64,000 nucleotides of DNA from the NCBI GenBank assembly GCA_029834535.1, contig JAQMWT010000634.1, forward strand, positions 1-64,000. Reading direction: 5' to 3'. The DNA is from Chrysophaeum taylorii. Taxonomy: Eukaryota; Sar; Pelagophyceae; Pelagomonadales; Pelagomonadaceae. A model generated the notes under the pieces. That model worked only from the letters and a program-made list of their open reading frames with translations, had not been told where the DNA came from and did no database searches. The position numbers and the translations under genes are program-made. Positions 8,821 to 64,000 of the stretch are shown here, piece after piece; positions within the stretch are counted from its first letter, which is position 1, and every line of letters begins with the position of its first letter.

Positions 8821-9903
8821 ATGATACGGTGCGTCGAGTTCTACTCGGGGCTCGGGGGGTGGGCATACGCCGCGGCCCGTTGCGAGGGGCTGGAGATCGT
8901 CTTGAGCGTCGATGTGTCGACGACATGCAACGAGATCTACTTTCACAACTGGGGCCGGCGTCCCGCGCAGCGCCGGATCGAGACGATGGACGCTTCCGAG
9001 TTGCGGGGCTTTGACGTCTGGCTGTTGTCGCCGCCGTGTCAGCCCCACACGCGGCAGCGCGAGGACGGTCGCGTCGACGACCTCGACCCGCGGTCTTGGA
9101 GCCTCGCGCACCTCGCCGGGTTGATGGCCGTGGCGGCGCCGCGGCTCTTCGCGTGCCTCGAGAACGTCGTCGGCTTCGAGAAGTCGAGGAGTTGCGAAGC
9201 GTGGCACTCTGCGCTCCGGGCCGCGGGCTTCGCGGTGCACTGGTGGCACGCGACGCCGACGGACATGGGCACGCCAAACGACCGCCCGCGCTATTTCGAA
9301 TGCGCGGTGCGCGGTGGCCGAGACCCCGCGAAGCCCGGGCGGACCCTCGCGCCGAGACGGCCCGCGCGCCCGCTCGCGGACTTTCTCGAGGCGGGAAATG
9401 AGGGCCTGCGCGTGTCCGAGGCAACCCTCGCCAAGACCGCGGCCTGGTGCCTCGATGTCGTCGCCGCCGACTCGCCGCACCCCGCGTCCTGCTTCACGAA
9501 GTCGTACGGTCGTTACGTTCGCGGCACGGGAAGCGTCTTGTTGTGTCGCGGCGAGCACGCGGACCTCGAGCGGCTGCACCTCGCGCGCGACGATCCAGCG
9601 AAGCGGACGTTTCGCCCGCGGGAAGCCGAGTGGCCGCCGCTACGATACTTTTCTCCCCGAGAAATCGCCAACCTCCTTGGCTTTCCGCCCGCTGGAGGAA
9701 GGGCCCCGCGCCACTTCGAGTTCCCGAGCTCCATCTCGACGAGGGCTGCGTGGGCGACGCTCGGCAACTCGCTCCACATCCCGACGGCCGTTGCCGTCAT
9801 CCGATTCGGTCTCAGAGAAGGATTCCACGGCGACGACGACGATGATGTCGGGCACTCGAGGAGAAGTGAGGCTGGTGAGTCTGCTGGCGATGTTTCACGA
9901 TGA
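8821..9903 (+). CDS. TRDMT1: DNMT2/TRDMT1-type tRNA (cytosine-5) methyltransferase
   Basis: Single exon, 360 residues, ATG at 8821. DNMT2 methylates C5 of cytosine 38 in tRNA-Asp and some other tRNAs using S-adenosylmethionine. Visible motifs in order are E-F-Y-S-G-L-G-G-W-A (SAM-binding motif I, residues 6-15), P-P-C-Q with catalytic Cys at residue 73, E-N-V at 114-116, and the DNMT2-specific C-F-T with following K-S-Y-G-R-Y-V-R-G-T-G-S near 224. L-L-G-F-P at about 285 and L-G-N-S-L near 314 form motif X. Length fits the family (about 340-400). The C-terminal tail after about residue 335 is acidic and low complexity. The CFT motif makes DNMT2 far more likely than a DNA methyltransferase. Confidence 0.93.
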   Translation: MIRCVEFYSGLGGWAYAAARCEGLEIVLSVDVSTTCNEIYFHNWGRRPAQRRIETMDASELRGFDVWLLSPPCQPHTRQREDGRVDDLDPRSWSLAHLAGLMAVAAPRLFACLENVVGFEKSRSCEAWHSALRAAGFAVHWWHATPTDMGTPNDRPRYFECAVRGGRDPAKPGRTLAPRRPARPLADFLEAGNEGLRVSEATLAKTAAWCLDVVAADSPHPASCFTKSYGRYVRGTGSVLLCRGEHADLERLHLARDDPAKRTFRPREAEWPPLRYFSPREIANLLGFPPAGGRAPRHFEFPSSISTRAAWATLGNSLHIPTAVAVIRFGLREGFHGDDDDDVGHSRRSEAGESAGDVSR

Positions 9904-24100: not shown

Positions 24101-24888
24101 CTCGCACTTGCGCTGGCAGCTCCACGTCCCGAAAAACTCCCCTTTCTGATATTCGTACGAGGCGTGAGCGGCGAGGCCCGCCGCGATGAGCGCCAAAAAT
24201 GCCGCGCTCACTTTGAAAAAGGCGCTGAGGTCGAGAGACTTCGACCCGCGGAACATGATGGCGCCGCAAGCAACCCCGATCAAAACGCCGGCCAGCACAC
24301 TGCCAGGCAGCGCGGTGGGCTCGCAAGACGCGCCGATGCCGACGATGAACACGCACGTCTCGAAACCCTCGCGGATGACCGACGAGAACGAAAGGAAAAA
24401 AAAGCCGTAACGCTGGGTCGCCGAGTTCTGGATCATCGCCTCCAAATTCTTCTCCCACTTGGTCTGCCACGTCCCCTTCTGCTTCATGCCGGGGGCCAAG
24501 TGCGTCACCCTGAGCGACGGCTTACGACGCGATGCCTCAAGACTCACAAGAAGTAGGCGATGCAGATGGCAGCGACCCCGAGCATCGTACCCTCGACAAG
24601 ACTCTCCGTCGACCCGCCCAGCTTTTCTGTTTGCGTGTAGTATATCGACAAGATGATTGCCGCCATGCAAAACGAGATGCCCGTGCCCAGCGCCGCGCCC
24701 ATCCACACATCTCGGATGAGCTGCTTTTCGCCGCGCCGCTGGAGGTACTGGATGAGGACGGCGACGAGAACCGCCGCCTCCAGAGTCTCGCGGAACACCT
24801 GCCACAGTCTCTCGTGACGAGCGCGGACACTACGTACGATAATCACGATCGGTATGCAGATAATGTCGTAAAACGTCAAACCCGACAT
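21185..24888 (-). CDS. FTR1-type iron permease fused to two FEA1-like domains
   Basis: Three exons (complement of 24548-24888, 21489-24509, 21185-21446) encode 1207 residues. Introns of 38 nt (24510-24547, GTGAGT..CTCAG) and 42 nt (21447-21488, GTAAGT..TCGTAG) each remove an in-frame stop. The start is the ATG at 24888. The N-terminal permease has the paired iron-binding motifs of FTR1/EfeU, R-E-T-L-E-A (residues 33-38) and R-E-G-F-E (160-164), in membrane helices. The large loop before the last helix holds two tandem repeats of about 390 residues (about 267-661 and 662-1060). Their signatures, H-A-W-D-E-G-W-A-F-Y-A-G-S, Y-A-L-A-D-K-R-C-S-N-F-G-T-C and Q-G-T-L-R-Y-A-W, I recognise as FEA1-like, the algal low-iron-induced periplasmic family related to phytotransferrin. 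Exon 3 supplies the last helix and an acidic cytosolic tail. Likely role: capture and import of ferric iron at the plasma membrane. Confidence 0.85.
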
Positions 24889-28235: not shown

Positions 28236-29435
28236 CTAGCAGAGGCCTTGATGGATGGCGAGGCGCTCGTATTGCGCCGCTTCGTGGAGGTTGAGGTAGA
28301 GGGATCGGCACGAGCGTGCATGGTCAGAGTTCCGCTTGGCGAGGGTGTGGGAGAGGCGGGAAGCGGCGGCATTGGGCATGGGGCCGAAGTCGAGGTAGAG
28401 TCGATGGTGCCAAAAGTAGGGGGAGCAGAGGGCGGCGCGCTCGAAAGCGCGGCAGGTCGGGGAAATGGCGACGACGTCGGGCGTCGGGAGGTAGTTGAGG
28501 AGTCTCGTGACTGTGGCCTCGTCGTTGAGGACCGCGTTGGCCACGCGGCGGGACCGCTCGATTTTGGCGAGGAGCGCGGGCTCGTCGGCGAGAAAGTCGG
28601 TCTTGTCGTCGTCGTCGAGGCTGATCCAGTTCTCCGTGACGGCGAGGGCCGTGTCGAGGTTGAGGACGGCGTGGATCCATCCCGCGGGGACATAAACGAG
28701 CTCGCCGGGTCGTTGGACGAATTCGATGTAGGGGAAGCGGCGCTTGATGTCGTCGCGTCGACGCCAGAAGAAGGTCGCCGCCGGTTCGTGGTCGCGGTAG
28801 TCTATCAGCGTGCCGGGCGGAAGCAAGAGCCAGAGTTTGCGGCCCTCGAACAAGTGGACCCAGGCGTGCGAGCAGAGCGGGTCGACGTGGGGACCGGTCC
28901 CAGACCTCGGGCCGCCGAGGAGAATCCAGCGCCAGGGAGGCCTCTGGTCGGGCGCGAGACGTAGAGCGCTTAGATAACACGCCGCCGAAGCGAAGCCCGG
29001 CCGGTCGTACTCGAGGCGCTCGAGCGGCGAGACGTCGTCCTTGAACTGCGAGTCGTAGAGCGAGAGCGGCGCGTCGTCCGCGGTCGTCCCGGCGTAGTCG
29101 AGGTAGTCGCGGACGCCGACCATCGCTCCGTGCTTGTCGGAGACGCGCATCATGACGTCCCCCAGGTCGTCGCGCAGCGTGTCGACGGACCACGCAGGCT
29201 GCGTGCCGTGGCGCTCGACGAGCATCGGCAATCGTCTCGTCTCGTAGAGCCGCGAAAACCGCCCCCTTGACGGCGTCACCGTCTCGACCCCGAAAGGGGG
29301 GACGCCGCCGCCGCAGTCGACGTAGCGCCTGTCTTCAGCGAATGACGCGACCAGGGACGGCCACCAGTCCGCGGCGAGGCCTTCGGCCGCCCAATCCGAC
29401 ATCTCGGGCCTTTCGGCCGCCTTGGCGTCATCCAT
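28236..29435 (-). CDS. JmjC-domain oxygenase (JMJD6-like) with F-box-like C-terminus
   Basis: Single exon, 399 residues, from the ATG at 29435. The JmjC fold of JMJD6-type Fe(II)/2-oxoglutarate hydroxylases or demethylases is clear: G-P-R-S-G-T-G-P-H-V-D-P (iron ligands His183 and Asp185), H-L-F-E-G-R-K-L-W-L-L-L-P (Lys200, the likely 2-oxoglutarate contact), and V-Y-V-P-A-G-W-I-H with distal ligand His255. Residues about 308-345 (L-L-N-Y-L-P-T-P-D-V-V-A-I-S, then F-E-R-A) resemble an F-box, normally at the N-terminus of such fusions, so here the order would be reversed. The gene is divergent from the twin-methyltransferase gene with almost no space between them. Substrate (histone, splicing factor or other) cannot be told. 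Confidence 0.8.
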   Translation of the reverse strand: MDDAKAAERPEMSDWAAEGLAADWWPSLVASFAEDRRYVDCGGGVPPFGVETVTPSRGRFSRLYETRRLPMLVERHGTQPAWSVDTLRDDLGDVMMRVSDKHGAMVGVRDYLDYAGTTADDAPLSLYDSQFKDDVSPLERLEYDRPGFASAACYLSALRLAPDQRPPWRWILLGGPRSGTGPHVDPLCSHAWVHLFEGRKLWLLLPPGTLIDYRDHEPAATFFWRRRDDIKRRFPYIEFVQRPGELVYVPAGWIHAVLNLDTALAVTENWISLDDDDKTDFLADEPALLAKIERSRRVANAVLNDEATVTRLLNYLPTPDVVAISPTCRAFERAALCSPYFWHHRLYLDFGPMPNAAASRLSHTLAKRNSDHARSCRSLYLNLHEAAQYERLAIHQGLC

Positions 29436-30741
29436 ATGCACTGGATCTCCTACGGCAGATCCTAACCTCTCGCACCGGTGGAAAGCACCGTGTACCTCCT
29501 GTGATCAAACCAAGCTGGAGTACGAGGAGCTCTGGGGGCCGCGAGAGATAAGGGTTGGTGGCCTTTCCGTGCAAGGGAGCGACGAGTGCGTCGAGTTCGG
29601 GGGTGAGGTGTGGCCCGGAGCCAAGGCCATCGCGAGATTGCTCGCCGAACGGCCCGATCTCGTGCGCGGGCGCCGCGTCGTCGAACTCGGGTGTGGCGCG
29701 GGCCTCGCCGGACTCACGGCGGCGAGCCTCGGCGCCGCCTCGGTGACCTTGACGGACCTCGAGCCCAACTTGGGTCTAGCGGCCGCGAACGCCCGCGCCA
29801 ACGGCCTCGTCGTTTCGTGCGAGCCGCTCGATTGGCGGCGCCACGAAGCGCGCCTCGAGTGCGACGTCGTCCTCGCCGCCGACGTAGTCTACAAACCCTC
29901 CCTCGTCGCTCCCCTGCTGTGCGCTCTCCGGGAGATCGCCTACGGCCTCCTCGTGCTCGCCAACGACGAGCGATCCGCGAATCAGAGGCGATTCGCGACG
30001 TGCCTCGAGTCGTGCGGCTTCCGCCTGCTCGAAGAGCACGCGACCGACGTCCTTCTCCAGCTCTACGGGCCGCCGCCGTCTTCTTCGAGTGGTCAAATGA
30101 CCGAGGTGCGGTTCGCCGACCTCGCCGTCCGCCAGGACGCCACCGAGGGCCTCGGAGGCTTAGTGTGGCCGGGCGCCGTCGCGCTCGCGAGGTACCTTCG
30201 CACCCTAGACCTTACAGGATCATCAGTCCTCGAGCTCGGCTGCGGCGCGGGTCTCGTCGGCTTGGCTATCGCCGATCGCGTCGCCTCCGTCGTGCTCTCG
30301 GACGAGCTCGTCGGTTTGGCCGCGACCAACGCGAGGACCTTCGACAACGCGACGGTGCGAGTCCTCGTCTGGGGTCTTCGCCGCGGCGAGGACGACCAGT
30401 CCTTCGACCTCGTCATCGGCGCCGAGCTCACGCCCTACCTCGACGCCCACGACGACCTCGCCGCCGAGATAGCACACCGCCTCCGACCAACCGGCCGCGC
30501 TTTTCTCACCGCCGCGCCCTTTCGGTCCGGCAAGAATGATTGCAAGACGACGACCTGCGCGACCCACAACTTCATCAACACGGCGGCGCGCCATCGCCTC
30601 GTCGTCGACCGCGTCCTCCAAGCCCCCATACTCGACGACAAGAATGGCGACGTCCAAGGTCTCGACCTCGCGCTCGACGACGGCTTCGACCATACCCTCA
30701 TCCTCGAACTACGCTTGGCATCATCATCATCATTACCCTAG
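29422..30741 (+). CDS. Tandem METTL21/FAM86-type (Methyltransf_16) methyltransferase; start unresolved
   Basis: The open frame holds two consecutive SAM-dependent methyltransferase domains of the protein-lysine type. The first is at about 29520-30080 (E-F-G-G-E-V-W-P-G-A, V-V-E-L-G-C-G-A-G-L-A-G-L, A-A-D-V-V-Y). The second is at about 30095-30735 (G-L-V-W-P-G-A-V-A-L-A, V-L-E-L-G-C-G-A-G-L-V-G-L, I-G-A-E-L-T-P-Y). W-P-G and E-L-G-C-G-x-G in both support an internal duplication. No ATG is in frame before the first domain; the only in-frame Met lies at the domain boundary (about 30097). Either a short 5' exon was missed (CCTAAC at 29471 and AG at 29485 could be a branch and acceptor) or only the second domain is made. 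Stop at 30741 is 21 bp before the CTF8 ATG. Confidence 0.75.
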   Translation: MASSICTGSPTADPNLSHRWKAPCTSCDQTKLEYEELWGPREIRVGGLSVQGSDECVEFGGEVWPGAKAIARLLAERPDLVRGRRVVELGCGAGLAGLTAASLGAASVTLTDLEPNLGLAAANARANGLVVSCEPLDWRRHEARLECDVVLAADVVYKPSLVAPLLCALREIAYGLLVLANDERSANQRRFATCLESCGFRLLEEHATDVLLQLYGPPPSSSSGQMTEVRFADLAVRQDATEGLGGLVWPGAVALARYLRTLDLTGSSVLELGCGAGLVGLAIADRVASVVLSDELVGLAATNARTFDNATVRVLVWGLRRGEDDQSFDLVIGAELTPYLDAHDDLAAEIAHRLRPTGRAFLTAAPFRSGKNDCKTTTCATHNFINTAARHRLVVDRVLQAPILDDKNGDVQGLDLALDDGFDHTLILELRLASSSSLP

Positions 30742-43922: not shown

Positions 43923-45119
43923 ATGTCCTCGATCGAAATTAAAGATAGCAAGCTTTCGCAAAAACTTGATGCCTTCAGCGGTGAGCGACATCTTTTCCAC
44001 CAATGGACACGGCGCCTTGAAAACATGATCATTTCCACCGGCGATCGCATTATTTTGACCAACGACACTTGGACAAGCATTTCCACCTCTGGCTGCTCTC
44101 AAGAAGAATTTGGTGTCAAGCAGCAACGTTGGTACTCTGCACTGTTCATGGCGCTCCCCATGCATGATACTGATCGTGCGGATATCCATGAAAACCGCGA
44201 TATGAACTTCACGCGGCTTTACAAGCGCATTACCGATGTTTACATGGGCCATGGGGATCGTGTCGCTCAGTCTGCAATTACTTCCTTGCATTCCTTGGTA
44301 TGCAACAATATCGATGAACTTGAGTCTTTTCTTAACAAGTTCATCACCGGTGTTCAAGTTGCTCGGCATCATCAAGATTTCCCTGACACTCTTGCATTGC
44401 AATTGCTTCAGACAAAAATCCCCGACTCGATCTTGTCTAAGGATCTCATTGCACTTGACCCTAAACTGCGCACATATGATGGTTTCGTTGATCGCCTCAA
44501 CAGTAAAGTCTTCGATTATCTTCAGACCAAGTCTGCGCTTGTCCATGCTACGCTCCGTGAGGGTCCCCGCCGTCGTGAACGTTGCAACTTTTGCGGTCGT
44601 ACCAACCATCCTTCGGATAAATGCCTTCATCGTCTCAATGCTTTGCGCTCCCAACAACGTTCACGCCCTCGCCCACCTTTCCGTTCCAGGCCTTCGCCTC
44701 CATTTTCCCGTGGCTCTTTCCATCGCAAGCGCCCACGCCCTACTGACCTTTGTCACTTTTGTGGCATTCCTTACCATCACCAGAAGGATTGTCGTAAGCG
44801 CCAGCGCTATCTTCTCTCTCAAGCCTCAGCCCGCCCTCGCCCTCGCCCTCGTCCCCAATACCCACCTCGACCCCATCCACCATTCTACCAAAACTATCTT
44901 TCCGCCCCCATCCCACTCTTGCCCCCCTCTCAACCCTCTCCGCCGCTTCTTGCGTTGCCACCCTCCACCACACCCTCTGTCCCGCCTTCCACCGCCGTCT
45001 CCCCTCCTGACCCATCTCTTTCTGCACCCACCTATCCGTCTTTCAATTTCCATCTCCCCCTCCATTCACCAAGTCCTTTCCTCCACCAATGCCCTTACCG
45101 CTCTGCTCACCGCCCGTGA
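43923..45119 (+). CDS. Copia Gag with two zinc knuckles
   Basis: 398 residues from the ATG at 43923. The N-terminal half resembles Copia Gag (W-T-R-R-L-E-N-M-I, then S-L-V-C-N-N-I-D-E-L-E-S-F). Two C-x2-C-x4-H-x4-C knuckles, C-N-F-C-G-R-T-N-H-P-S-D-K-C and C-H-F-C-G-I-P-Y-H-H-Q-K-D-C, bind nucleic acid. The C-terminus is Pro/Ser-rich. The pol frame is +1 relative to gag and overlaps it, so Pol may be made by a +1 shift. I found no Ty1-type CTTAGGC slip site in the overlap. Confidence 0.85.
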   Translation: MSSIEIKDSKLSQKLDAFSGERHLFHQWTRRLENMIISTGDRIILTNDTWTSISTSGCSQEEFGVKQQRWYSALFMALPMHDTDRADIHENRDMNFTRLYKRITDVYMGHGDRVAQSAITSLHSLVCNNIDELESFLNKFITGVQVARHHQDFPDTLALQLLQTKIPDSILSKDLIALDPKLRTYDGFVDRLNSKVFDYLQTKSALVHATLREGPRRRERCNFCGRTNHPSDKCLHRLNALRSQQRSRPRPPFRSRPSPPFSRGSFHRKRPRPTDLCHFCGIPYHHQKDCRKRQRYLLSQASARPRPRPRPQYPPRPHPPFYQNYLSAPIPLLPPSQPSPPLLALPPSTTPSVPPSTAVSPPDPSLSAPTYPSFNFHLPLHSPSPFLHQCPYRSAHRP

Positions 45120-48100
45120 GCGCGACTACCTGCACAGCAACAACCTTCGCCTCGTTGTCTACGATACAGGTGCCAACGTCAATCTCTTCAATTCCCCTGC
45201 TGGTTTCACTGACCTTGACAACACTCAACAGCACTCAATCACTTCTGCTATCGGCACTGGCTCTGTTTCCGGTTCTGGCACTGCTCACTTAACGTTCCCT
45301 TCAATTGGTCCTCTTGACAATCGTGGTCTTCCTTCTCCTGCACCCACTCTTTCCGCCCCTCATGACATCCATGTCGCGTTCCCGCATACCCTCATCTCTC
45401 CTGGCCTAGGTGACAAACGGATTCTTTCGGATCATGCCCTTGAGCAAGTTGGTTACGATTGTCATACGATTCAGGATGTTGGCCCTACTCATCCGCAACG
45501 ACTCTTACGTCATCGCCAAACGCATCACGTTATTCCCCTGCTTCGTCGCTGTGGTCTTCTTTTGATCGTCTGTTGGATCGGCAATACGACCGCTGCGCCC
45601 TACGCGGACTTCGTTTCACCTTTTGTGGCATTTTCTTCTTGCCCTCGCGTACATGACCCTTGTGCGTTTCCCGTTGTGTCTCAACGCACCCAACTTACCT
45701 TCGACCTTTGGCATGCTCGTCTTGGTCACTATAGTCCCTCTTACATCCGACGTTTGTCTTCTCTCGCCGTTGGCGCACCGCTTTTCCCCAGCTCCGCGTC
45801 TCCTTCTTTTCGTCATGCTTGTGCTCTAGGTAAATTGCATGCTGCGCATGTTGGCCCACGTAAAGCACATGCCTCCACATCCACTTCTCTTCTTGCCACC
45901 GATCCTTTGTCCCGTCCACGTGCCGTTGCTCCTTATCTTATTATCCACGCTGATCTCATGTATACCGGTATTCCTTCTTTCATCTACCAAGACCGCGCCA
46001 TCCTTACGTTTGTTGATGATCATACGCGCCGCCGCACACGTTACTTTGCCCCCCGCCACGATGCACTTACGAACGCTCGTCAACTCGAACTTTTTCTGTC
46101 TACCGTAGTTCGCCCATTTGGATATCGCATCGCCCTCATCTACACCGATCGTGACCGCTCTCTTATGGGCCAATTCGAAACCTTCTGTCTGGGCAACAAC
46201 ATCGCCCTCAAACGGGCTCCTGCTGCTCAGTCCAAAACTACACAGGCGCACGCTTTTTCTGGTGTTGTGGAACGCTCTCATCGCGCAACTGCTGATATTA
46301 CTCGCACTCTTTTAGTGCATGCGCACCGCCCACCTGATTTTTGGCGTTGGGCCATGGAAACGGCTGACTTCATCTCCGAGCGCATGCCAAACGCCTCTAA
46401 CCCTGGTTCCATGACGCCATATGAAATGCTGCACGAGGCTCTGCCCCGTGTCGATTTTCTTCGTGTTTGGGGCTGTCCTGCTGCTATTCTTACTGGCGAC
46501 AAATGGCATACCAAAGCTATAACCGGTATCTTCATTGGGTATCCCTCTGCCGGACCCGGTTATCGCATATTGCTTCAACGCACCACTGGTCCCGTCATCC
46601 ATACATCTATTCACGTTGTTTTTGACGAAAATTTTGCCATGCGTAAGTCTCTGTCCTCCCAACCCCTTCCTCCTTTTCTTGTGGATTCTCGTTTCCCTGA
46701 CTTATTTTATTATGACCCTCGTTTGTCTTCCGCTGTTGCTCCCTTGTCTTCTGTTTTTGATGCTCAGGAGCCGGCCTTATCGGGACTGATCACCCCAGAA
46801 ACAATACCACAACCGTCAACGGACAATACGAAAAGTGCACCATTACGTCGAGCCAAACGGGGCAGACCGCGCAAAGTCGACCAAAGCGCATTACCAACAA
46901 CCACGAACAAACCATCGAACTTTCATTCTAGCGTTTGTCCACAACGCAACGTCAATTCTGTTTGCCCCCAACGTAATGTCGATTCTGTTTCCTCCTGTCA
47001 CTCTCTGTATGTCTCTTATTCTAGCTTTCGTTTGTTAGTTCATTATGTCTTCCTTCCCCTTTGTCTAGCTCATACCATTGTTGATCCCCATGCTGTCCAT
47101 GTCCATTATTCTGCTTCTGAAGAAACCTCTCAGTATTCATACAATGACGATGGAGCTATCACTTCCACCCATTTACGCGAAGCTTTAGCTCAGACAAATC
47201 CTGAGCGCCCTGGCTGGTTGCAAGCCATCGCCAAAGAATATCATTCCCTCGGTCAGCTTGGTTGTTGGGATGTTGTTCGCGTTCCTTCGACTTTTTCTGG
47301 CAACATCTGTACCCTCAAGTGGATCCTCCGCAAGAAGTATGAATCTGGCCGCTTCAAATCGTACAAGGCTCGCCTCGTTGTCCGCGGTTACACCCAGGTT
47401 CACGGCATTGATTATCACGATACTTATTCCCTAGTTGCCAACATCGTCACCATCCGTTTCTTTCTAACTTTTGTTGCTGTTCATGACTGGGATTTGCACA
47501 AGTTGGATGTCAGCTCCGCTTTTATCCAAGCTCCCATTGACGAAGACATCTATGTCTGGCCACCCGAAGGCTATGCTCCTCGCCAACCCACCGATGGTTC
47601 CAAAATCGTTTACAAGCTCCGTCGCTCTTGGTATTGTTGCAAACAAGCTTGTCGTAATTGGCGGCTTTATTTGGAACGCTTCCTTGTCAATGATTGTGGT
47701 TTCGTCCGCGGATCTGGTGACACTTGCAGTTACAAGCTCGTACTTAATTCTACCGTTGTCCTACGTCTCGTTCTTGTCGTTGATGATCTTCTTGTGGCGC
47801 ACCCTCGTCATTGCCTTGGCCATTACCAAGCCTTCTTCCTCCGTTTCCGAACCTTCACTGACGTCAACGAGCTTGATCTAACCACTTACGTTGGTCTCCG
47901 CATTGCGCGTGATCGCCCACGTCGCACGCTCACTATCGACCAATCCCATGCTATCCGTGAAATCCTTACCGAACATCGCTTCATCAACAGTAAACCAGAA
48001 CTGACTCCCGCTCCCAAAGGTCTTCATCTTTCTGCGGCTGATTGTCCTGCTCCTGGCTCTCCCGATCACGTCTTCATGGCACGCATCCCTTTTCGTCGTA

Positions 48101-48375
48101 TTGTTGGCTGTGTTTTATTTATTTCCGTTATGACTCGCCCTGACATCACTTGGTCCGTCAATCAGTGTGCGCGTTTTCACACAATCCTGGTAAACCCCAC
48201 TGGCACGCTTTATCTCACACCCTCCGTTATCTCAATGGTTCTCAACATCCTGCCCTTGTTCTTGGTCGCGATTCTACCCTTCGTCTATGTGGTTATTCCG
48301 ACTCCAGCTGGGCCGACGACCCTGATGACCGCCACTCCACTACTGGCTTTTGTTTTCTCCTTGCTGGCTCTATGA
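44236..48375 (+). CDS. Copia Pol: protease, integrase, reverse transcriptase
   Basis: The open frame runs from within gag; recognisable domains start near 45100. Protease V-V-Y-D-T-G-A-N-V (active Asp at 45163) is followed by GAG-pre-integrase L-W-H-A-R-L-G-H-Y near 45710. Integrase has H-A-D-L-M-Y, Y-T-D-R-D-R and G-V-V-E-R-S-H-R as the D, D, E triad (45945-46290). A G-R-P-R-K AT-hook-like motif lies near 46860. Reverse transcriptase shows W-I-L-R-K-K-Y and K-A-R-L-V-V-R-G-Y-T-Q near 47310-47400 and V-L-V-V-D-D-L-L-V at about 47775. The frame ends at 48375 only because a one-base loss at a TTTT run near 48185 throws it off before RNase H. Confidence 0.9.
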   Translation: MFTWAMGIVSLSLQLLPCIPWYATISMNLSLFLTSSSPVFKLLGIIKISLTLLHCNCFRQKSPTRSCLRISLHLTLNCAHMMVSLIASTVKSSIIFRPSLRLSMLRSVRVPAVVNVATFAVVPTILRINAFIVSMLCAPNNVHALAHLSVPGLRLHFPVALSIASAHALLTFVTFVAFLTITRRIVVSASAIFSLKPQPALALALVPNTHLDPIHHSTKTIFPPPSHSCPPLNPLRRFLRCHPPPHPLSRLPPPSPLLTHLFLHPPIRLSISISPSIHQVLSSTNALTALLTARERDYLHSNNLRLVVYDTGANVNLFNSPAGFTDLDNTQQHSITSAIGTGSVSGSGTAHLTFPSIGPLDNRGLPSPAPTLSAPHDIHVAFPHTLISPGLGDKRILSDHALEQVGYDCHTIQDVGPTHPQRLLRHRQTHHVIPLLRRCGLLLIVCWIGNTTAAPYADFVSPFVAFSSCPRVHDPCAFPVVSQRTQLTFDLWHARLGHYSPSYIRRLSSLAVGAPLFPSSASPSFRHACALGKLHAAHVGPRKAHASTSTSLLATDPLSRPRAVAPYLIIHADLMYTGIPSFIYQDRAILTFVDDHTRRRTRYFAPRHDALTNARQLELFLSTVVRPFGYRIALIYTDRDRSLMGQFETFCLGNNIALKRAPAAQSKTTQAHAFSGVVERSHRATADITRTLLVHAHRPPDFWRWAMETADFISERMPNASNPGSMTPYEMLHEALPRVDFLRVWGCPAAILTGDKWHTKAITGIFIGYPSAGPGYRILLQRTTGPVIHTSIHVVFDENFAMRKSLSSQPLPPFLVDSRFPDLFYYDPRLSSAVAPLSSVFDAQEPALSGLITPETIPQPSTDNTKSAPLRRAKRGRPRKVDQSALPTTTNKPSNFHSSVCPQRNVNSVCPQRNVDSVSSCHSLYVSYSSFRLLVHYVFLPLCLAHTIVDPHAVHVHYSASEETSQYSYNDDGAITSTHLREALAQTNPERPGWLQAIAKEYHSLGQLGCWDVVRVPSTFSGNICTLKWILRKKYESGRFKSYKARLVVRGYTQVHGIDYHDTYSLVANIVTIRFFLTFVAVHDWDLHKLDVSSAFIQAPIDEDIYVWPPEGYAPRQPTDGSKIVYKLRRSWYCCKQACRNWRLYLERFLVNDCGFVRGSGDTCSYKLVLNSTVVLRLVLVVDDLLVAHPRHCLGHYQAFFLRFRTFTDVNELDLTTYVGLRIARDRPRRTLTIDQSHAIREILTEHRFINSKPELTPAPKGLHLSAADCPAPGSPDHVFMARIPFRRIVGCVLFISVMTRPDITWSVNQCARFHTILVNPTGTLYLTPSVISMVLNILPLFLVAILPFVYVVIPTPAGPTTLMTATPLLAFVFSLLAL

Positions 48376-52782: not shown

Positions 52783-54600
52783 GTGTACATAGACACCGAT
52801 AGACAGACCCCCTTAGAATGTTTAGACAGTGTCAACTGCGTGACTGAACCCACAGGTTCCCCGTCAACTGCTACGGCAGAACACGCAGCACGAGTCGCAC
52901 CCAAGGCGATCACAGGTGCGGATATATTGAAGCTGGAAGCTCCTGTAGTTGAGTTTCTTAACGATGGAAATCGATTTCAGCTTCAGACTCGCAAGGTATC
53001 CTTGCAAATCAAGCATATTAAGCAATTGTTACGGTCCAGTCATGCCGATGCCTTCCTCGAGTACGACTCGTACGACTCGTACGAAGCATATACTCGGTGA
53101 TGCAAGGACTATGAGATCCTCCGGAATCAAATTCTCGATCGCGTTTTCCTGGAATGGAAGACCGATAGGGCTGCTGATCTCCGTTTAGCTGTTGATGAAT
53201 TGCCCCCTGAGTATCAGGAATGGCATTTCACCAACGAAGCTTTCCCCAACTTACCGGAAGCAGAAGTATCTCAGCTAGCTACTGTCTGTTACGACAATGA
53301 AGTCACGGCATTACGTCCTGAAATCAATGCTCGTTTCTTAGAAGAGGAACGAATCTTAAATCGCGCGCACCCGAAAGCATTAGCTTTCGACACCCGTGTT
53401 CGTGCCCCTGTTACTATGTTTTCGTTAACTGCTGCTGACTGGCACACTTATCAGAACACGTATGCTACATTCTTGCATACTTACTTCAATCTTGAAAGTG
53501 TTGGAAAACCAGCACTTGCGGCCTGGCCCGCCATCAATGAGGCATATAACAAAAGTTATTTACCCAACAAGGCTCGAGCCATGATGCTCATCGCCTTTAG
53601 TCACTACGAGTCTGTTACGACTACTGATGTGTCCTATTTGAAACAGCAATTTAACTCTGTTGTTTATAATCCTAACTGGTATGTCCATGTATTTATCGAA
53701 GCTGTCCTAGCATTTAGGCAAATCTCTTACCAACTTAACCAGGAAGAGACTGACCTTCAATTCGACTTTGGTGCTCTTTGTAGAAAAATCTATGAAGAGA
53801 TACATCGGCATTATGCCGATAATACCAGCAACAATCGTTACGATCGTGGGGGTGGGTGGTTGGGTAGATTGGTGTTATATGTATGAAACCCGATCTTCAT
53901 CTCGGCCTGTGCCAGAAGCTGAACGATTGTGTCACCCTACCAACCCTAGCTACATTTTAGAGTACGCATTATACTTATACAATGTAGTATCAAATGGGTC
54001 AAACGAAAGACGCTTAGAACGCCCCGTTTCTTGGCAACCCTATGTCGACGGTTTATCATCTCAACCAAAGCCAAAGTTACTACTTACAAATACGCTGGAT
54101 TTAGCAGACAAAAGTCTGACTCAAACTGCTAACACACTCGCCCTCATCACTGCGTCTCAACCTGGTACATCTTCCACGTTTAATGCTAGACGCTTGCGTA
54201 ACTCTAATGATGCTCGCCAGCCTTTCTCTCGCAGCGACTTATCGTATTTTCGTTCTGGTGATTCTTACGTCACCAAGAAAACTGCTGGACAGTCCCATGA
54301 CCGTCCAATTTACCCCCGCACTTTGGACAGGTCCTCTCGGTCTAACATGAAATTATTAGATCGAACAAATCACACCTTAAACACCCTGCGAGAACAGTGT
54401 AGTGAACTTACGAAGCATGTGACAGATAATGATACCACGGCTCAGCTACAACAGAATATCAACAAGTTATTTGAGACTCTATTACAATCAGCTGACATTC
54501 TGTCAACGACATCTACTGAGGACAACAGTAACTTACTTCGTCTAAACGAACAACTCATGTTTGTAGAAGACATCATTTATGATGTAGACGTTCATCTATC
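52783..54600 (+). pseudogene. Gag-like region of the methyltransferase-bearing element
   Basis: One frame runs 52783-53886 with a single TGA at 53098-53100 (upstream E-A-Y-T-R, downstream C-K-D-Y-E-I-L-R-N-Q). The frame then shifts by one near 53850, beside a G-rich stretch, and continues to the protease. Recognisable features are few: a helical capsid-like part (Y-L-P-N-K-A-R-A-M-M-L-I-A-F) and a long Ser/Thr/Gln-rich linker with a coiled-coil-like part (L-R-E-Q-C-S-E-L-T-K-H-V). I see no zinc knuckle, unlike the neighbouring Copia. Assignment to Gag is by position. Confidence 0.6.
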
Positions 54601-54629
54601 CTCGACCGAAAAGTCGTTAAACTACGTGG

Positions 54630-55513
54630 AGCCACAACATCATACTGTTGTTACTGCTCCCACCCCAAAGGCAACTCCTCCTACTACAGACACGAAGAAT
54701 CCCCCCAACACACAGGGCAATCCTTCCAATATTGTGCCTAGCCTCTTTACTGCTTCCGCCATCTCGGCTTTACCACCAGCGTTACTGTCCTCGCTGTCTT
54801 CACAGGTCCAATCTGCCCTCAACTTACCACCACAAGCCGAAACCAAAAGGGATGCCGATCATACTTCGCTATCGTCATTTGATGAAAAGCACGGCATGGC
54901 TGATGAGGCTGACGAACCATCACCACCTGTTCAACCGATTATCATTCCAACGAATCTGCTATTGCTGGAGAACTTCTTCACAGCCAGCCTCTCCACCACT
55001 TGCACACATTCGGAAAACGCCTTCCTCACCAACTACATGAAGGTAAACAGCGTCCCTCCTCATTGCTCTTTTCTATATTTTGACTCTTGTGCTACCATCT
55101 CATTGATGTCCACTTACGATTTTGCAATACCCAATCATATTATTCCACTGGACTCCAAATACGCGCCGATTGTTATTCAAACAGCCACTGGACAACAACG
55201 TGCCTCACACATGATGTTAACACGTAACATTGTTGCTCCCCTACCAGATCATCCACAAGTTGGCTATGTTAAGATCGACTTCGCTTTATGTCTTCAGCCA
55301 GTGCATGACAGACATCTCGCTATCCTGAGCATGCTCGAGTGGAACCAGACGAACCTGACCACTGTGTTCAATGATCGAGCTGAGCCAAAGCTCAGCGCTG
55401 TCACGAGCCGCATAGACAAAGATGTACGTATTCCCATACACTACATAGCAGCTAATTTACCTGCTCTCCTTGTCTCACTTACAACATCGCTCGCGACATC
55501 TCACGCCCAGTGA
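54630..55513 (+). pseudogene. Retropepsin-like protease with D-S-C-A active site
   Basis: C-S-F-L-Y-F-D-S-C-A-T-I-S-L-M (Asp codon at 55082) sits where Copia proteases have Y-x-D-S/T-G-A. It is followed by V-I-Q-T-A-T-G-Q-Q and Q-P-V-H-D-R-H-L-A-I-L-S-M-L, like the flap and second strand region. Cys replaces the usual Gly of the active triad. The region after 54990 is fully open to 55513. The preceding 54630-54990 is Pro/Thr-rich linker. Confidence 0.65.
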
Positions 55514-55539
55514 TTCTCTCACAAGAGTCCAATCTCCGC

Positions 55540-57710
55540 AAACCCTCTGCCATGTTACTTTGTTCTGGTTTGTCAACCCCGGCGTTCCTGTCTCAAGCCA
55601 CTAATGACTTAGGCTTAAATATCAATGTAAAAGTTGTTGTTGAGTCTGATGATACACTTGTTCGTATGTTACGCCACCGTTTCCCTACTGTATTATTATT
55701 TGAATATCTCCCCGCCTTTATTAACCATCTTCACCTAATCTCACCAGAGGAAAGGCGCACATTCTATTGTGATATAATTGAGATCACTCCTCCCTGCACG
55801 AACAGGAATTTACCAAAACAGCATAAGACAGAAGACTTACACAGCCTGCTGGACGATTCTCTTTTCGACAGCATGTTGTCTGTCATCATGTTACTCCAGC
55901 CCTTGGTACTACTGGCTGAGATGACGCCTCCACATAAGTACTGTCATCAAGACCACATCACAGTGGCCAATCTTATCCATGCAACACTTGATTACTGTGT
56001 CGATCTTGTTGATAGGTTCCCGACACTGCGATCGCTAACCGTTGGTTGCGATGGAGGACGGCGCCTAACACCGTGCGATCGCTAACCGTTGGTTGCGATG
56101 GAGGACGGCGCCTAACACGCTTGCTCCCTGCGGCGGCCCCGGCCGTCCCGGAGTGAGACGGTGCCTGCTCGCCTCCCGGGCTGGCCGGTTAGCACCCGGA
56201 AAGTCCGCGCTGGGATGGGGTTCGCTCGGTTGGGCAGAACGCGACGGACAGGTCGATTGTTCGTGGACCAACACGTTTGCGGCCTGCGATGCTTTTGCAC
56301 GACTTCGCACAAGACCGCGCGCAGTGGCGGTCCGTCATCAACGAGTCCTCGTCCCTCGCCTCAGCCCCAACTGCGTGATTTTCCTCTGTGATTCCGGATC
56401 GGCTCCTGCCTGTCCGGCCTGGCTCCCATGCTCGGGAGAGGTCTGAAGTTAGTTAGTTAGTTAGTTCCCGACATACCTCTGTGGCGACTACCAATCTAGA
56501 GAAAGATGGATATGCATCGCACGCAGGTATTCTACTGGACCAGTTAAAATATTGTCGTGGCCTATCCTCCATCCACGCCCCTTCCTAAAGATCGTGGGTG
56601 ATCTACAAGCTATTCCCAAGCGCCTTTGGCTCCCTAAACACGTATCCAAAGACTGATCCGGGTGTTCCCGATCCTCCATATATCCCCGTTCCTAAAGCGT
56701 TTGCACCTTACTACACAGGTTCTGCTCAGCTCACTATGGCTGACCTTGAATCCCTCAATATGTTACTGCCGCCTTCACTCACAACAGGCTCACGAGCAAC
56801 GTACTCACTCTGTTCAACTTATACCATCAGCTGTGCTTTAAACGCTCCTCTATGGAGCCGCTACCCAATGCAACCTACCCTATACATGTCAAGGTTTTTT
56901 ACAATGCTCTATAACTTGTTTGCCAGCTTACACACTAACTCACCCACTCCTGTGTCTTATAACATAACCGTTTTCGAAACTAAACTAACCAACCGTCACA
57001 CAGGTTACTTCTTACTACCTCATCAACATCAAACAACTCCCACTTCTTAACTGGTGGCCACCACTCTGACGGCAACCTCACCATAGAGAACGCCACCACC
57101 AAATATCATGCTTCTATTGACGCGTTTGGAAGCACGTATACGCTCACTGCTTCCGACATTCCCCGCGACCGCGACAGGTCCATATATTTGGAGCCGTTTA
57201 TGGGTCACTTGTGGATAGTCCGAGCCCTTCCCCAAGTTGGCTCCGCTGCCACCTATGGCACCGCCATACAAAAGCTCTTGTCCAGACGCTCTCTTGTGAT
57301 GCCTGGCTGCTGCCTTACCTACAAGGCCACCGCTAGCTCTTTCGACTACAAGGACTCTCATTTTGCTCTGGAAGACCACCACTTATCTCATAGTCGCTAT
57401 ATAGGGTACCTTCGTGGAAGTGACCGCAAACTCGGCTCTAAAATCCACTCCATGCATGCTCCTTTGCCCACCGTCCGAGGGTACGCCAATATGATTTTAC
57501 TGGACCCCCGCAACGGGAAATTGCGCTACCCCACTCGACCGGAGTTGATTCGTGCTAACAACCACACCAAACAACCGGAATCCTTCCTCTTGTCTCTACG
57601 CCATGACCTTTGCTGTGACATGCTCAGCAATGCTCTGCCTGCCGGTACGTACAGTACTCTGCACAAGCACCTCTCGCTCCTCGTTGCCGATATTAAATCC
57701 CTTATGTTGG
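55540..57710 (+). pseudogene. Retroelement-encoded C5-cytosine methyltransferase, split by a retroposon
   Basis: Motif I is L-L-C-S-G-L-S-T-P-A-F-L with V-V-V-E-S-D-D-T-L-V-R-M-L-R-H-R-F-P (about 55550-55690). Motif IV is P-P-C with the catalytic Cys (55789-55797). Motif VI is L-L-A-E-M-T-P-P (55910-55932). The frame is interrupted at 56026-56463 by a short retroposon; ignoring it and one copy of its duplication, the same frame continues into motif VIII D-Y-Q-S-R-E-R-W-I (56486-56512). A one-base shift follows near 56650, then the presumed target-recognition region, motif IX P-T-V-R-G-Y-A-N (about 57467) with G-K-L-R-Y-P-T-R-P-E-L, and motif X S-N-A-L-P-A-G (57625). Active copies would presumably methylate DNA; the target is unknown. 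Motif VI has E-M-T in place of E-N-V. DNMT2 at 8.8 kb is unrelated in detail. Confidence 0.75.
56026..56463 (+). mobile_element. TTAG-tailed short retroposon, copy 1
   Basis: Flanked by the 10-bp duplication GTTCCCGACA (56016-56025 and 56464-56473). The head is a tandem duplication of about 45 bp starting TGCGATCGCTAACC; the tail is (TTAG)n. No convincing protein. It interrupts the methyltransferase between motifs VI and VIII. Direct target repeats, a short-repeat tail and small size are the marks of a SINE mobilised by a LINE. Confidence 0.88.
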
Positions 57711-57716
57711 ACCCTA

Positions 57717-58114
57717 ACCCTGCGATCGCTAACCGTTGGTTGCGATGGAGGACGGCGCCTAACACGCTTGCTCCCTGCGGCGGCCCCGGCCGTCCCGGAG
57801 TGAGACGGTGCCTGCTCGCCTCCCGGGCTGGCCGGTTAGCACCCGGAAAGTCCGCGCTGGGCTGGGGTTCGCTCGGTTTGGCAGAACGCGACGGACAGGT
57901 CGATTGTTCGTGGACCAACACGTTTGCGGCCTGCGACGCTCTTGCACGACTTCGCACAAGACCGCGCGCAGTGGCGGTCCGTCATCAACGAGTCCTCGCC
58001 CCTCGCCTCTGCCCCAACTGCGTGATTGTCCTCTGTGATTCCGGATCGGCTCCTGCCTGTCCGGCCTGGCTCCCATGCTCGGGAGAGGTCTGGAGTTAGT
58101 TAGTTAGTTAGTTA
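57717..58114 (+). mobile_element. TTAG-tailed short retroposon, copy 2
   Basis: About 398 bp flanked by GTTGGACCCTA (57706-57716 and 58115-58125). Nearly identical to copy 1 but with a single head. The uninterrupted site is preserved in the related fragment at about 26985-27010 (minus), which proves both the boundaries and the direct repeat. It lies just after motif X of the methyltransferase. GGTTCGCTCGG near 57863 loosely recalls a Pol III B box but is not convincing. Confidence 0.92.
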
Positions 58115-58125
58115 GTTGGACCCTA

Positions 58126-60366
58126 CCTTCCAACATACTGCTGCCGTGACGAAGAAATCCTATGTATCCAATTTCATGACCGTTGATCAAGCTTCCACCA
58201 CGTGCAGCACAGATACCTCGCCTTTGGCACAAGCTTTTATGATGTCTATTTCCAGCAACTGCTTGACCGAAATGTCGTTAAACTATATATCTTCGTCCTA
58301 CGAAGATACTCTCGTTACTCGTGATGATGAGGATGCACATCCGAGTGACCCTGCTGCACACCAGGATGACGACGCACCGCCTTCCCCTGCCTTAGACACC
58401 GAACTCAAGTTCGATGTTCGGCGCAAATGGCATGTTCCCGCTCATCCCATTCCTCGTAAGTCCCTCGCACACGGATCCACCGAATATCTCAATGCCAAAG
58501 AACGTGCCAATCGCTTCCACCGGGTGCATCACTGCCCCGACAACGTCGCTGCCAAGGCCCCAATGTACTTGCTCGCCCTGGATTCTCTGCCTTTGACATA
58601 CCATATCGCGACTTATGCACCGACTGCATCGCACACAACAAGCGCCACCCGCACAAGCATTTCAATGCGACCGAGCCTCTTTTGAGCAAACTCACAAAGC
58701 CGGCGAAGTCGCGTGCGACGGCGGCTATGTGACCATCCCATCCGAATGGGAGGCTTCACACATATCATCGTCTTCAAGGAACTCATTTCGAAATTTCTCT
58801 TGGTGTACTTTACACGCACCACCAACGCCACGGAGTTCACTCAAGCTCATGATTTTGTGTATGACTTCTGTCGTACACAACTCAACGTGCTCATGCGCAC
58901 CCTCTACTCTGATGCCTTCAAGCCCTACTTTAGCCAGCACATTACCTCCCCGCCCCGCGTCGATAAAGGCATTCACTCATCGCCTTCCCGCCGTACATGC
59001 ACCACTTTAACTTTGAAGTTGAGTCCGCCATCGGTTTCATCGCCTCCGCCTCCTCAACTCGCCTTCGTTCTCTCCTTAATGCTCACTATCGTGGCGCCAA
59101 GATCGTGGAACCAGCCATCATGTTTCCGTGGGCGGTGATACACACCGTTCAAAGCTACAACCTTCTCCCGAACGCCACGCTCGAGCGCATTCATCATGCT
59201 ATCCTGAGTCCGCAACAGCTACTCTACAACCAACTCAACACTCCCCAACATGACATGCTCAAGATTTTGGCGCTGAATGTTACCTTCTATTGGAGCCCCA
59301 TGAACACCACAAGTGGGAACCGTGCCGCCGCAAATATTTATATCTCTGTTGCGCCAACGCGCAAAACCCGCTCGTCTCCCCACGCGTCGACCATCTCGCT
59401 GACGTCGTCCTCAACCCTGAAAACGGACAAATTCGTGTTTCGTCCAAGCTGCAATTCCTCTACATGCTGCAGCATCCTACTCCTGATCCTGAACTTGCTC
59501 CTCCGCCTCACGCTCCTCCGCGCCTTTCTCGCTCACACCCCACGCCGCTATCCAAGACCATGTCATTCAGAGGGGGACAAGGTCTCATCCTCAGAGGGGG
59601 CACTCCCCACCTCCTTCAGCTCCTTCTTCGTCCCCTGCTCCTGCTTCTTCTCTCTTCTGACGCTCGCCGACGATTCTGGCTCTATGTCACCGCCGCCCTT
59701 GCTTCCTTCTTACAGACATCTTTGCACAAGATGACCTCATTCTTGTCCCAGGTTCCAAACAACCCAACACCCGCAAGGCCACTCTATGAAACTATCCAAG
59801 CCCGGCTACAAGCGTCTACTATTGGTGCTTAGCCGCTGGTGGCAAACTCGCCGATTTCCGCTGGGATCTTCGCCCCCTTACGTTCAAGTCTCCCGCCCTC
59901 TCCGCCCTTCATCTTAATGGTGGTATCCTCTGGTCTGCTATCTGCTCAGAGGGGGAACATGCGTTGTCGCCTGTCTTCTTCTCCCGTTGCGCCTACTTAC
60001 TTGCCCGCTACCCGCACGTCGATGGTTACTTCGCCCACGCAAGTGCGCATCCAGCATCCCAGCTGCCTTTAATCGCTGATGGTTCACCTACGTGCCCCAT
60101 TCCGCCCTTTTATCTGCGTTCACTGAACACGCTGCTGCCTTTGGCACTTCTTCCACAATATGCACTTACGTACCTGGCGCCGACCAGCTATTGATCACAC
60201 CCTCCGAGTTTGGCGTACTTCTGCATCTCTGGCTGACTTGGGAAGCCTTCTGGTCTCTACAGAGTTTATCACCCGGTCTTACACACCGACCCTACTATCC
60301 ATATTCAACTGAATCTGCCCTCTCCACCCTACTGACTTCCGCTTATCCTGAAGTTGCGCACACTGC
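58126..60366 (+). pseudogene. Linker, GAG-pre-integrase and integrase of the large element
   Basis: Pieces in changing frames: linker to L-T-E-M-S-L-N-Y (58263-58286), then K-E-R-A-N-R-F-H-R-V-H-H-C-P-D-N-V (GAG-pre-integrase-like, about 58495). Integrase core follows, G-G-F-T-H-I-I-V-F-K-E and L-V-Y-F-T-R-T-T-N-A-T-E-F-T (58745-58860), L-Y-S-D-A-F (about 58905), then V-E-S-A-I-G-F-I-A and F-P-W-A-V-I-H-T-V-Q-S-Y-N-L-L-P-N (59020-59175). Stops and shifts are frequent. The region 59500-60360 is too degraded to assign. Confidence 0.65.
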
Positions 60367-62199: not shown

Positions 62200-64000
62200 G
62201 GCCCTACCTTCTGCCACAATTTTTTGTACGCGTCGTGTGAGTGTCGCTCATGTCTTTTCTTAACTCCCGTGGCCGTGGCGTATATCTCCAGTCGTTCGAA
62301 GACAATTCCACGCTCGCTTTCCACGGCCGACCTTCTCCCAAGTTGTCGCAAAAGCGACACCCATGACCACTGTTACTCCTGCTACCTTCAGGCTGCTGCT
62401 GTCGCACTGACACCAGCGAAATGCCATCTTACGCCCTCAATCCCTAACACCCATGATGGCCTCAACGGATTTTCCCCTGTTTGAACGAAACTCTTCTCGA
62501 GAACTTCCGTGTCCCTGCCACCCCTTTCTCTTGTTTTATGCGAGCGAAATCTTACGGCACTCAACTCGATCTATCAGCTACGACCTTCACTGTTTGTGGA
62601 ACTAACAACATTCATATCCATGCACCTACCCATTACTATATCTTGGGAAGCTGCTCCTGCTATTGCTTCTATTGGCTGCTACAGAGGCCCCAAACGTGAA
62701 CGTTTCATTTTGTCATCCTACCGTGCGCAATGCCTCAACTAGCTAACTAACTAACTTCGGACCTCTCCCGGGCATGGGAGCCAGGCTGGGCCGGCAGTAG
62801 CCGGTCCAGGATCACAGAGCAAAAATCACACAGTTGGGGTAGAGGTTGCGGATGAGGCGCAGATGGCGGACCGCCACTGCGCGCGGTCTTTGCGTCGTGC
62901 CACGAGTTGAAGGGGATGTCGCATTTCCGGAGTGCCATGGCGAGCGACCTCCCGTACGTCATCTGCGGAGCCCCCGTTTCATTTTGTCATCCTACTGTCC
63001 GGGCGCCCTGCAACAATTTGGGTACGTAACCTACCTTCTCGCCCTACCACGTTCGAAGTCACAGCTGCACCTCGTGAACTCCCCACTGAAGTGCTGAGTC
63101 ACCTCAACACGGACGACCACAAGAAGAATGGTCACATCCCCATCTCGACTATTACCATGAACATTTGCTGCGCTTGTCACNACGCACCCGATCAGGTGCC
63201 TACACACCTACTGTATGTGCCCGCCACGCCTTCCTTCCCTTCTGTTATGTGTCAGCTGGTCATATACGCGCAACCATCATACGCACTCTATCATTTGCCA
63301 AAGGAGTACATACTTTTATGATCAATCTAACGCAATATCCGTCGCTTGCTATTAACTATCGGTTCGATGCAGTCACAGATTTGTTCACTCAACTGCCATT
63401 CGCACTGGATCTTGCCACTCAGCTGCACCTTGAGCATCTTAATTTCTTAACTCTTGTTCGAACACAGCCTGCAAAGCCTGCGCTATGTTCCAGCCCAAAT
63501 CCACCATGTGATTAATACTGTTGCCCAATCGCGGGTACAACATCTTGGTACTACGTATCATCCTCAGATGATAAAACCGCCATCACTCCGATAACGTTCG
63601 GCCCCACTATACCCGGCAGAACATCAGACTTTCACTTTCTAAACGCGAATACCCCCTACTCACGCCCATGTGTTGACCGAGACGTCGTTTAACCTCTTCC
63701 TTACATCAGAACCTACTGGAGCAAACCTCGCCATCGACTCACCCTGCCTCTTCTGCCTCGGTTGATGTCTATGCCTTACGTCTCAGCAAGTCGGCAACTC
63801 CAGGTCCTCGCCTATACATCCGCAAAATCACACCTCAGCGCTGAATCTATCCTCGCGCCTGATCTACAGTCTGCCATTGGGCATCATTTTCCTGAGAACC
63901 GGTCTTTCCTCCACTGCCAATGCACCACGCCTTATGCCACCTGCAAGTGCTGTTAAACACTGAGCTGTTGTCTGTTCTTATGCCGATGATCAATATGCTG
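62200..64000 (+). pseudogene. Unidentified module downstream of RNase H
   Basis: Copia elements usually end in RNase H and the LTR. Here coding-like sequence continues for at least 1.7 kb: P-R-P-T-F-S-Q-V-V-A near 62325, T-I-W-V-R-N-L-P-S-R-P near 63010, H-L-N-T-D-D-H-K-K-N-G-H-I-P near 63102, and Y-V-S-A-G-H-I-R-A-T-I-I near 63250. Then L-T-E-T-S-F-N-L (63673-63696) and more. I do not recognise a domain. It is interrupted by retroposon copy 3. It could be an accessory protein of the element or the start of another element. Confidence 0.4.
62722..62974 (-). mobile_element. TTAG-tailed short retroposon, copy 3 (5'-truncated, inverted)
   Basis: Related to the 3' half of copies 1 and 2 (GACCGCGCGCAGTGGCGGTC and CTCCCATGCxCGGGAGAGGT) but on the minus strand and more diverged. 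The tail at 62736-62756 is (CTAA)n on the plus strand. A perfect 21-bp direct repeat flanks it (62701-62721 and 62975-62995). 5' truncation with an intact tail is typical of LINE-type target-primed insertion. Confidence 0.85.

Follow-up and report, generated by a model that had tools for sequence, protein, structure and literature searches.

The window analysed here, a stretch of 64,000 nucleotides from the pelagophyte Chrysophaeum taylorii (contig JAQMWT010000634.1; C634:1-64000 of the 70.8 Mb and 697 contigs of the searched genome), contains the remains of a Copia-type retrotransposon in which a domain of the cytosine C5-methyltransferase family sits between a protease-like stretch and the integrase. 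For this identity and this place our confidence is very high. The methyltransferase is a family-wide part of Pol and not a private insertion, while the window copy is dead, as judged from two inserts resembling short interspersed nuclear elements (SINEs), frameshifts and a deletion. Taken as a whole, the picture of a multicopy Copia family with a C5-methyltransferase in its Pol, represented in the window by a dead member, is the one that we favour on balance. The domain is very divergent, and transfer of methyl groups to the C5 position of cytosine is a predicted activity.

The methyltransferase domain and its place in the element

Seven motifs in the expected order, which we take to be the C5-methyltransferase motifs of the corresponding numbers, lie at 55552-57652, with remnants of integrase and reverse transcriptase (RT) downstream and the protease-like stretch upstream. 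A first-pass annotation, made from the letters alone, had named motifs I, IV, VI, VIII, IX and X in this order; all of them were located, and motif II as well:

55552-55590, motif I, MLLCSGLSTPAFL
55633-55653, motif II, VVVESDD
55780-55809, motif IV, EITPPCTNRN
55909-55935, motif VI, LLAEMTPPH
56480-56509, motif VIII, CGDYQSRERW
57524-57562, motif IX, RYPTRPELIRANN
57617-57652, motif X, DMLSNALPAGTY

They are spread over two frames because an insert of about 440 nucleotides splits the domain between motifs VI and VIII. Comparison with the sibling locus L037 by translated search (tblastn) gives the following anatomy:

52951..54034, forward strand, Gag-like 5' part broken by frameshift; tblastn with L037, 91-92% identity, two frames
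54038..55468, forward strand, Gag C-terminal and protease-like part; tblastn 92% to L037, no relevant Pfam match
55498..56025, forward strand, C5-methyltransferase domain, piece 1 (motifs I, II, IV, VI); 92% to L037, at least 150 genome matches, homologues match PF00145
56028..56465, forward strand, SINE-like insert 1, whose head is duplicated and whose tail is (TTAG)n; repeat and pattern search, end read by eye
56453..57715, forward strand, C5-methyltransferase domain, piece 2 (motif VIII, presumed target-recognition region, motifs IX and X); 70% to L037 in a one-frame reading
57722..58115, forward strand, SINE-like insert 2, flanked by TTGGACCCTA; end read by eye
58416..59517, forward strand, integrase region in three frames; tblastn with L037
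60456..61278, forward strand, RT remnant of RVT_2 type; tblastn with L037, whose RT matches PF07727 at 144.9 bits
61603..62144, forward strand, RNase-H-like remnant, named by position; tblastn with L037, no Pfam match

The order of protease, methyltransferase and integrase, also claimed in the first pass, is borne out by position and by tblastn with L037. Its retropepsin part is weaker, the assignment being made from position and the motif FDSCATISL (55079-55105) only, with no Pfam match. The presumed target-recognition region of the window copy is frameshifted, and its protease/methyltransferase junction is shortened, with loss of the stop codon there. Insert 1 carries the 9-nucleotide direct repeat TTCCCGACA at both flanks, and insert 2 is 98% identical to it over 300 nucleotides by repeat search. 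An apparent reversed piece of a SINE-like, GC-rich insert was seen by eye near 62745-62990; the flanking repeats of the inserts measure 9-10 nucleotides. An Rfam scan of the window gave no match.

The motifs alone are insufficient to identify the domain, because none of the ten window pieces matches PF00145; the identity asserted in the first pass is decided by homologues, profile comparison and fold. The PF00145 profile, silent on the window copy, does recognise related copies in lineage B and the homologue P0004. At E <= 10 it matches three of the ten members of alignment A5, among them P0003 (20.2 bits, below the cut-off of 22) and P0004 (23.0 bits, above it), and all 50 listed matches of the predicted structure of P0004 belong to the C5-methyltransferase family. 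The profile of lineage A, that of the window element, aligns with lineage B from motif I to motif X (E 2e-6; negative control 0.68), and lineage B passes the PF00145 cut-off. The catalytic Cys of motif IV and the Glu of motif VI are invariant across the compared rows of lineages A, B and C and two outside homologues, the same two that a second-round protein search returned. Sequence searches of the PDB gave one C5-methyltransferase with the B profile (E 0.039), HhaI/HaeIII with L003 (E 0.03-0.12, alongside an unrelated channel at 0.093) and no match with the A profile. The lineage-B polyprotein region, used as a query, had no homologue at E <= 0.001 among 7996 candidates scored, and in viral contigs and prokaryote genomes only pattern matches were obtained, none of them confirmed by tblastn.

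The family is large. Window positions 55510-56085 have at least 150 genome matches, themselves included, at 77-100% identity (lineage A), and the second half of the domain in lineage C has 126, of which 123 were used after three second pieces of split matches had been dropped; the A and C domains are 48% identical (L042 to L041). For lineage B, PF00145 itself served as the probe: with 123 of 474 candidates scored, 57 places are above its cut-off, or 55 after removal of two host genes (C634:8824 and one on C621). All 22 of the 55 that were fetched match the lineage-B domain by tblastn (25 loci, three places having been taken twice; the remaining 33 places are unread). The search for intact copies suggested in the first pass yielded long open frames with the methyltransferase ahead of integrase and RT: L010 (lineage B) has a single frame of 1952 amino acids with PF00145 (32.1 bits), a weak rve match and RVT_2 (133.2 bits), and L037 (lineage A) one of 1691 amino acids with methyltransferase, integrase region and the RVT_2 match given above. 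The rve and SH3_retrovirus matches of L037 and L042 are below cut-off, and the zinc-binding and D-D-E residues of the integrase were seen by eye. The putative integrase lies upstream of RT, which would be the Copia-type order.

A census of the best 150 RVT_2 places, the ones scored among 1670 candidates, sets the methyltransferase within this architecture. On the same strand and at a distance of 2.5-6.5 kb upstream, 69 of them have an A or C match; the match is to A in 47 and to C in 23, one place having both. The matches lie at a spacing of 4247-4275 bases in 23 of the 47 A cases and 3477-3529 in 12 of the 23 C cases; the strand-swapped control gave 0. The other 81 places are not evidence that the domain is absent, lineage B being uncounted and the A list comprising at least 150 matches, and five of them (C431, C331, C149, C466 and C131) have a lineage-A junction match 3.5-4.4 kb upstream. 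The window itself does hold one Copia element free of the domain, together with other pieces relevant here:

8821-9903, forward strand, full-length host C5-methyltransferase gene, open in a single frame; PF00145 at 69.6 bits
26843..27985, reverse strand, second lineage-A methyltransferase fragment (second half); tblastn 88-94% to L037, two frames
44236..48375, forward strand, ordinary Copia Pol without methyltransferase; gag_pre-integrs, SH3_retrovirus and RVT_2 above cut-off, no PF00145, protease motif DTGAN

The junction stop codon and selection on the domain

The junction studied is the stop between the protease part and METHYLTRANSFERASE. A TGA separates Gag-protease from methyltransferase-integrase-RT in 11 of the 13 lineage-A loci examined, the two exceptions being, by reading, L038 with an insert and the window copy (L029) with a deletion at the junction. 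Searched across the genome, a 29-base pattern of the junction gave 147 matches, against 0 for the control; among the best 100, those with the fewest mismatches, TGA is present in 99 and CTA follows at the next codon in 97. Across the remaining 24 fixed columns 40 changes were counted, which leads to an expectation of about five in the three TGA columns where one is observed, a modest deficit; variation is highest at two third codon positions, which the pattern left free. In 10 copies, with few sites to compare, the 19 codons from the stop to the first ATG have a ratio of nonsynonymous to synonymous differences (pN/pS) of 0.42 when read in frame, and the two alternative frames give 2.69 and 1.60. 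According to the accessible text of PMC4132726, UGA-CUAG is a tested mammalian readthrough context; the fourth base in lineage A is C. Readthrough of the UGA-CUA stop is plausible in lineage A.

The gag and pol frames of lineage B share 37 nucleotides in a -1 relation (L010, L018 and L021; L016 differs), and no convincing slippery heptamer was found in the overlap. The lineage-B pol frame starts right after TGACTAC (L010:3094, L018:3699, L021:3368), the same heptamer as at the lineage-A stop, and the frame ahead of it is not open.

Purifying selection acts on the domain in the compared copies. Pooled pN/pS (pairwise Nei-Gojobori) is 0.221 for six A copies (pair ratios 0.14-0.36) and 0.250 for nine B copies. 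The copies were chosen because their frames are open, as is the case in 6 of 13 A loci and 9 of 22 B places. In lineage A the ratio is 0.103 for motifs I-VIII, 0.289 between VIII and IX and 0.238 for IX-X, with 0.179, 0.271 and 0.216 as the corresponding values in lineage B. Other parts of the lineage-A element give 0.095 (integrase, 4 copies), 0.085 (RT, 3 copies) and 0.128 (protease part, 11 copies). Between A and C, synonymous sites are saturated.

Proposed function and competing explanations

Two host genes with PF00145 were seen. The one in the window is presumably DNMT2-like, judging from its motifs; the other, at C621 (L009:4468-9999), combines PF00145 and SNF2 in one frame and is DNMT5-like. 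Exon-split genes could escape this tally. According to PMC9998398 (accessible text), DNMT5 enzymes occur in pelagophytes, diatoms and haptophytes.

We propose that the methyltransferase would be produced solely as part of Pol, which in lineage A would require readthrough of the conserved UGA-CUA stop, and that it would be carried into the particle with RT and integrase. There it could modify cytosines of the new complementary DNA (cDNA), or later those of the integration site, so that the insertion would arrive already marked; the DNMT5-like host enzyme with its SNF2 part, as a candidate for maintenance, could then keep or lose the mark. This route is favoured because of the position in Pol, the selection on the domain and the de novo activity in yeast of two retrotransposon DNMTs (PMC5890265, accessible text), and we put its chances slightly below even. 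A bolder extension seems doubtful to us: a Copia lineage with a C5-methyltransferase as its first Pol domain, gated by UGA-CUA and delivered in Pol amounts, may itself provide the bulk of de novo cytosine methylation in this organism, with the host only maintaining it, since the host enzymes seen with PF00145 are only the DNMT2-like and the DNMT5-like one.

A number of observations weigh against our overall reading. Motif VI is AEM or MEM instead of ENV in lineages A and C, with loss of the Asn, and the QxRxR of motif VIII is absent from lineage B. The domains of L041 (A) and L042 (C) have no Pfam or NCBIfam match. The full-length model of the lineage-A domain is poor (mean predicted model confidence, pLDDT, 40.3), and Foldseek with this model was unspecific, returning general Rossmann-type folds with DNMT3A at rank 19. 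Of the downstream parts read in the first pass, the Copia-type RT stands, and RNase H is assigned by position with no Pfam match. Long terminal repeats (LTRs) were not found in five stretches searched, which perhaps fall short of the element ends; only the inserts and one 217-nucleotide tandem were seen. The single lineage-C copy read has TGA at the matching place followed by CGC and not CTA, and no ATG before motif I, and the gag/pol arrangement of lineage B differs from that of A. Constraint is weaker over the presumed target-recognition part (0.27-0.29), and pN/pS is biased downwards, in all domains alike, because open-frame copies were chosen.

The methylation footprint belongs with these points. 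Self-methylation of the element, surmised in the first pass as a possible way to evade or exploit host silencing, drew no clear signal from the CpG-decay test. C/T mismatch rates before A, C, G and T are 0.059, 0.062, 0.083 and 0.090 in 11 A copies and 0.075, 0.094, 0.122 and 0.127 in nine B copies, so that neither lineage has a clear CpG excess of C/T differences: CG exceeds CA and CC and does not exceed CT. Observed/expected CpG is 0.86-1.05 in 14 element loci and 0.94 in the window element, below the host DNA (1.29 for window positions 1-43000), yet the Copia element without the domain is likewise low (1.06). The result argues against CpG methylation that persists on copies after integration; any mark that the enzyme makes could be transient, lie in a different context or be placed on RNA.

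Methylation of RNA, either primer transfer RNA or genomic RNA, in the manner of DNMT2-type enzymes, is an explanation that we consider unlikely. In hhalign comparisons the A profile is no more similar to the host DNMT2-like enzyme (E 0.023) than to the DNMT5-like one (0.003), both matches being weak, and the lineage-B values against the two host enzymes (0.44 and 0.16) are too weak to decide; the stretch of about 300 amino acids between motifs VIII and IX is also longer than in DNMT2. The lost Asn of motif VI and the missing QxRxR speak for a domain that does not methylate at all and guides integration as a DNA- or chromatin-binding part, but the invariance of the motif IV Cys and motif VI Glu, and the fact that constraint is strongest over motifs I-VIII in A as well as in B, leave this idea as improbable as the previous one.

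Less probable still is an element that damps itself or its competitors, its methylated copies limiting copy number and sparing the host. The same anatomy is compatible with such restraint, the slowing of retrotransposition is one option in the accessible text of PMC5890265, and the DNMT5-like enzyme is a host candidate for maintenance; more than 300 matches in 70.8 Mb and the lack of clear CpG decay argue in the opposite direction. We give next to no weight to the idea that a host gene inserted privately into a single element, or that the motifs line up by chance: the window copy taken alone, with its lack of a Pfam match, could suggest it, but it is refuted by the copy numbers (at least 150 A, 126 C and 55 B matches) and the long open frames with the methyltransferase ahead of integrase and RT. 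Chance in particular is excluded because the copy number is high.

Host context and known retroelement methyltransferases

The genome has 84 light-harvesting (PF00504) matches, some of which are pieces of one gene. For the light-harvesting protein of the window the best PDB match is named FCP6/FCP10, and other fucoxanthin chlorophyll a/c proteins rank near the top. By this sequence evidence the alga has FCP-type antennae, which makes a stramenopile likely and a haptophyte a less likely alternative. The light-harvesting match at 8148-8637 adjoins the host C5-methyltransferase on the opposite strand, and tandem arrays of light-harvesting genes with equal or nearly equal scores lie at C88:35406-41267 and C539:24843-30127. 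A reverse-strand frame (21485-24805) unites FTR1 iron permease and Fea1 domains, possibly an iron-uptake fusion, and a forward-strand frame (29422-30741) contains two methyltransferase stretches, of Methyltransf_16 and Methyltransf_25 types.

Transposons are as a rule on the receiving end of cytosine methylation, and here an abundant element keeps its own methyltransferase; it may thus write marks of the kind that hosts normally use to silence it, and offers a natural system for asking why retroelements carry such an enzyme. Similar captures may hide in other genomes, because the domain of the window lineage escapes Pfam. As the first pass noted, captures of this kind are known from a few lineages; published cases are LINE (long interspersed nuclear element) and DIRS elements in Symbiodinium and Gypsy in Klebsormidium (PMC5890265; this and the following papers are cited from their accessible text). 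Among open-licence papers we found no Copia element in which the domain sits between these two Pol parts, protease and integrase, and no stramenopile case, a weak negative. One sentence in PMC12344493 mentions 'LTR Copia' elements with DNMT3 besides DIRS, and so likewise Copia and DNMT in one element, but it gives neither position nor lineage and refers to the 2018 paper, where the LTR element, in the text covered, is a Gypsy. Sola1-1_Ec32 of Ectocarpus (PMC12477816) likewise puts a methyltransferase on a stramenopile mobile element, as a ParB-methyltransferase accessory protein; unlike the element described here it is a DNA transposon, with the enzyme in a separate gene and of predicted N4-C or N6-A type. 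SymbioDIRS-Dnmt3 and SymbioLINE-Dnmt of Symbiodinium (PMC5890265) share with our element the microalgal host, the hundreds of intronless copies and the DNMT in the coding region, whereas they are DIRS and LINE elements with a different domain order. KnitGypsy-Dnmt3 of Klebsormidium nitens (PMC5890265) is an LTR element, as ours presumably is, and likewise has a DNMT inside the Pol frame and under purifying selection (Ka/Ks, the nonsynonymous to synonymous rate ratio, < 0.2, against our pair ratios of 0.14-0.36). It is a Gypsy element with a DNMT3-family enzyme, whereas ours is a Copia element with a very divergent domain between the protease-like part and the integrase, in an alga with antennae of the FCP type. 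With an element class and a host other than those of the published cases covered here, the enzyme may benefit retroelements more widely than is known.
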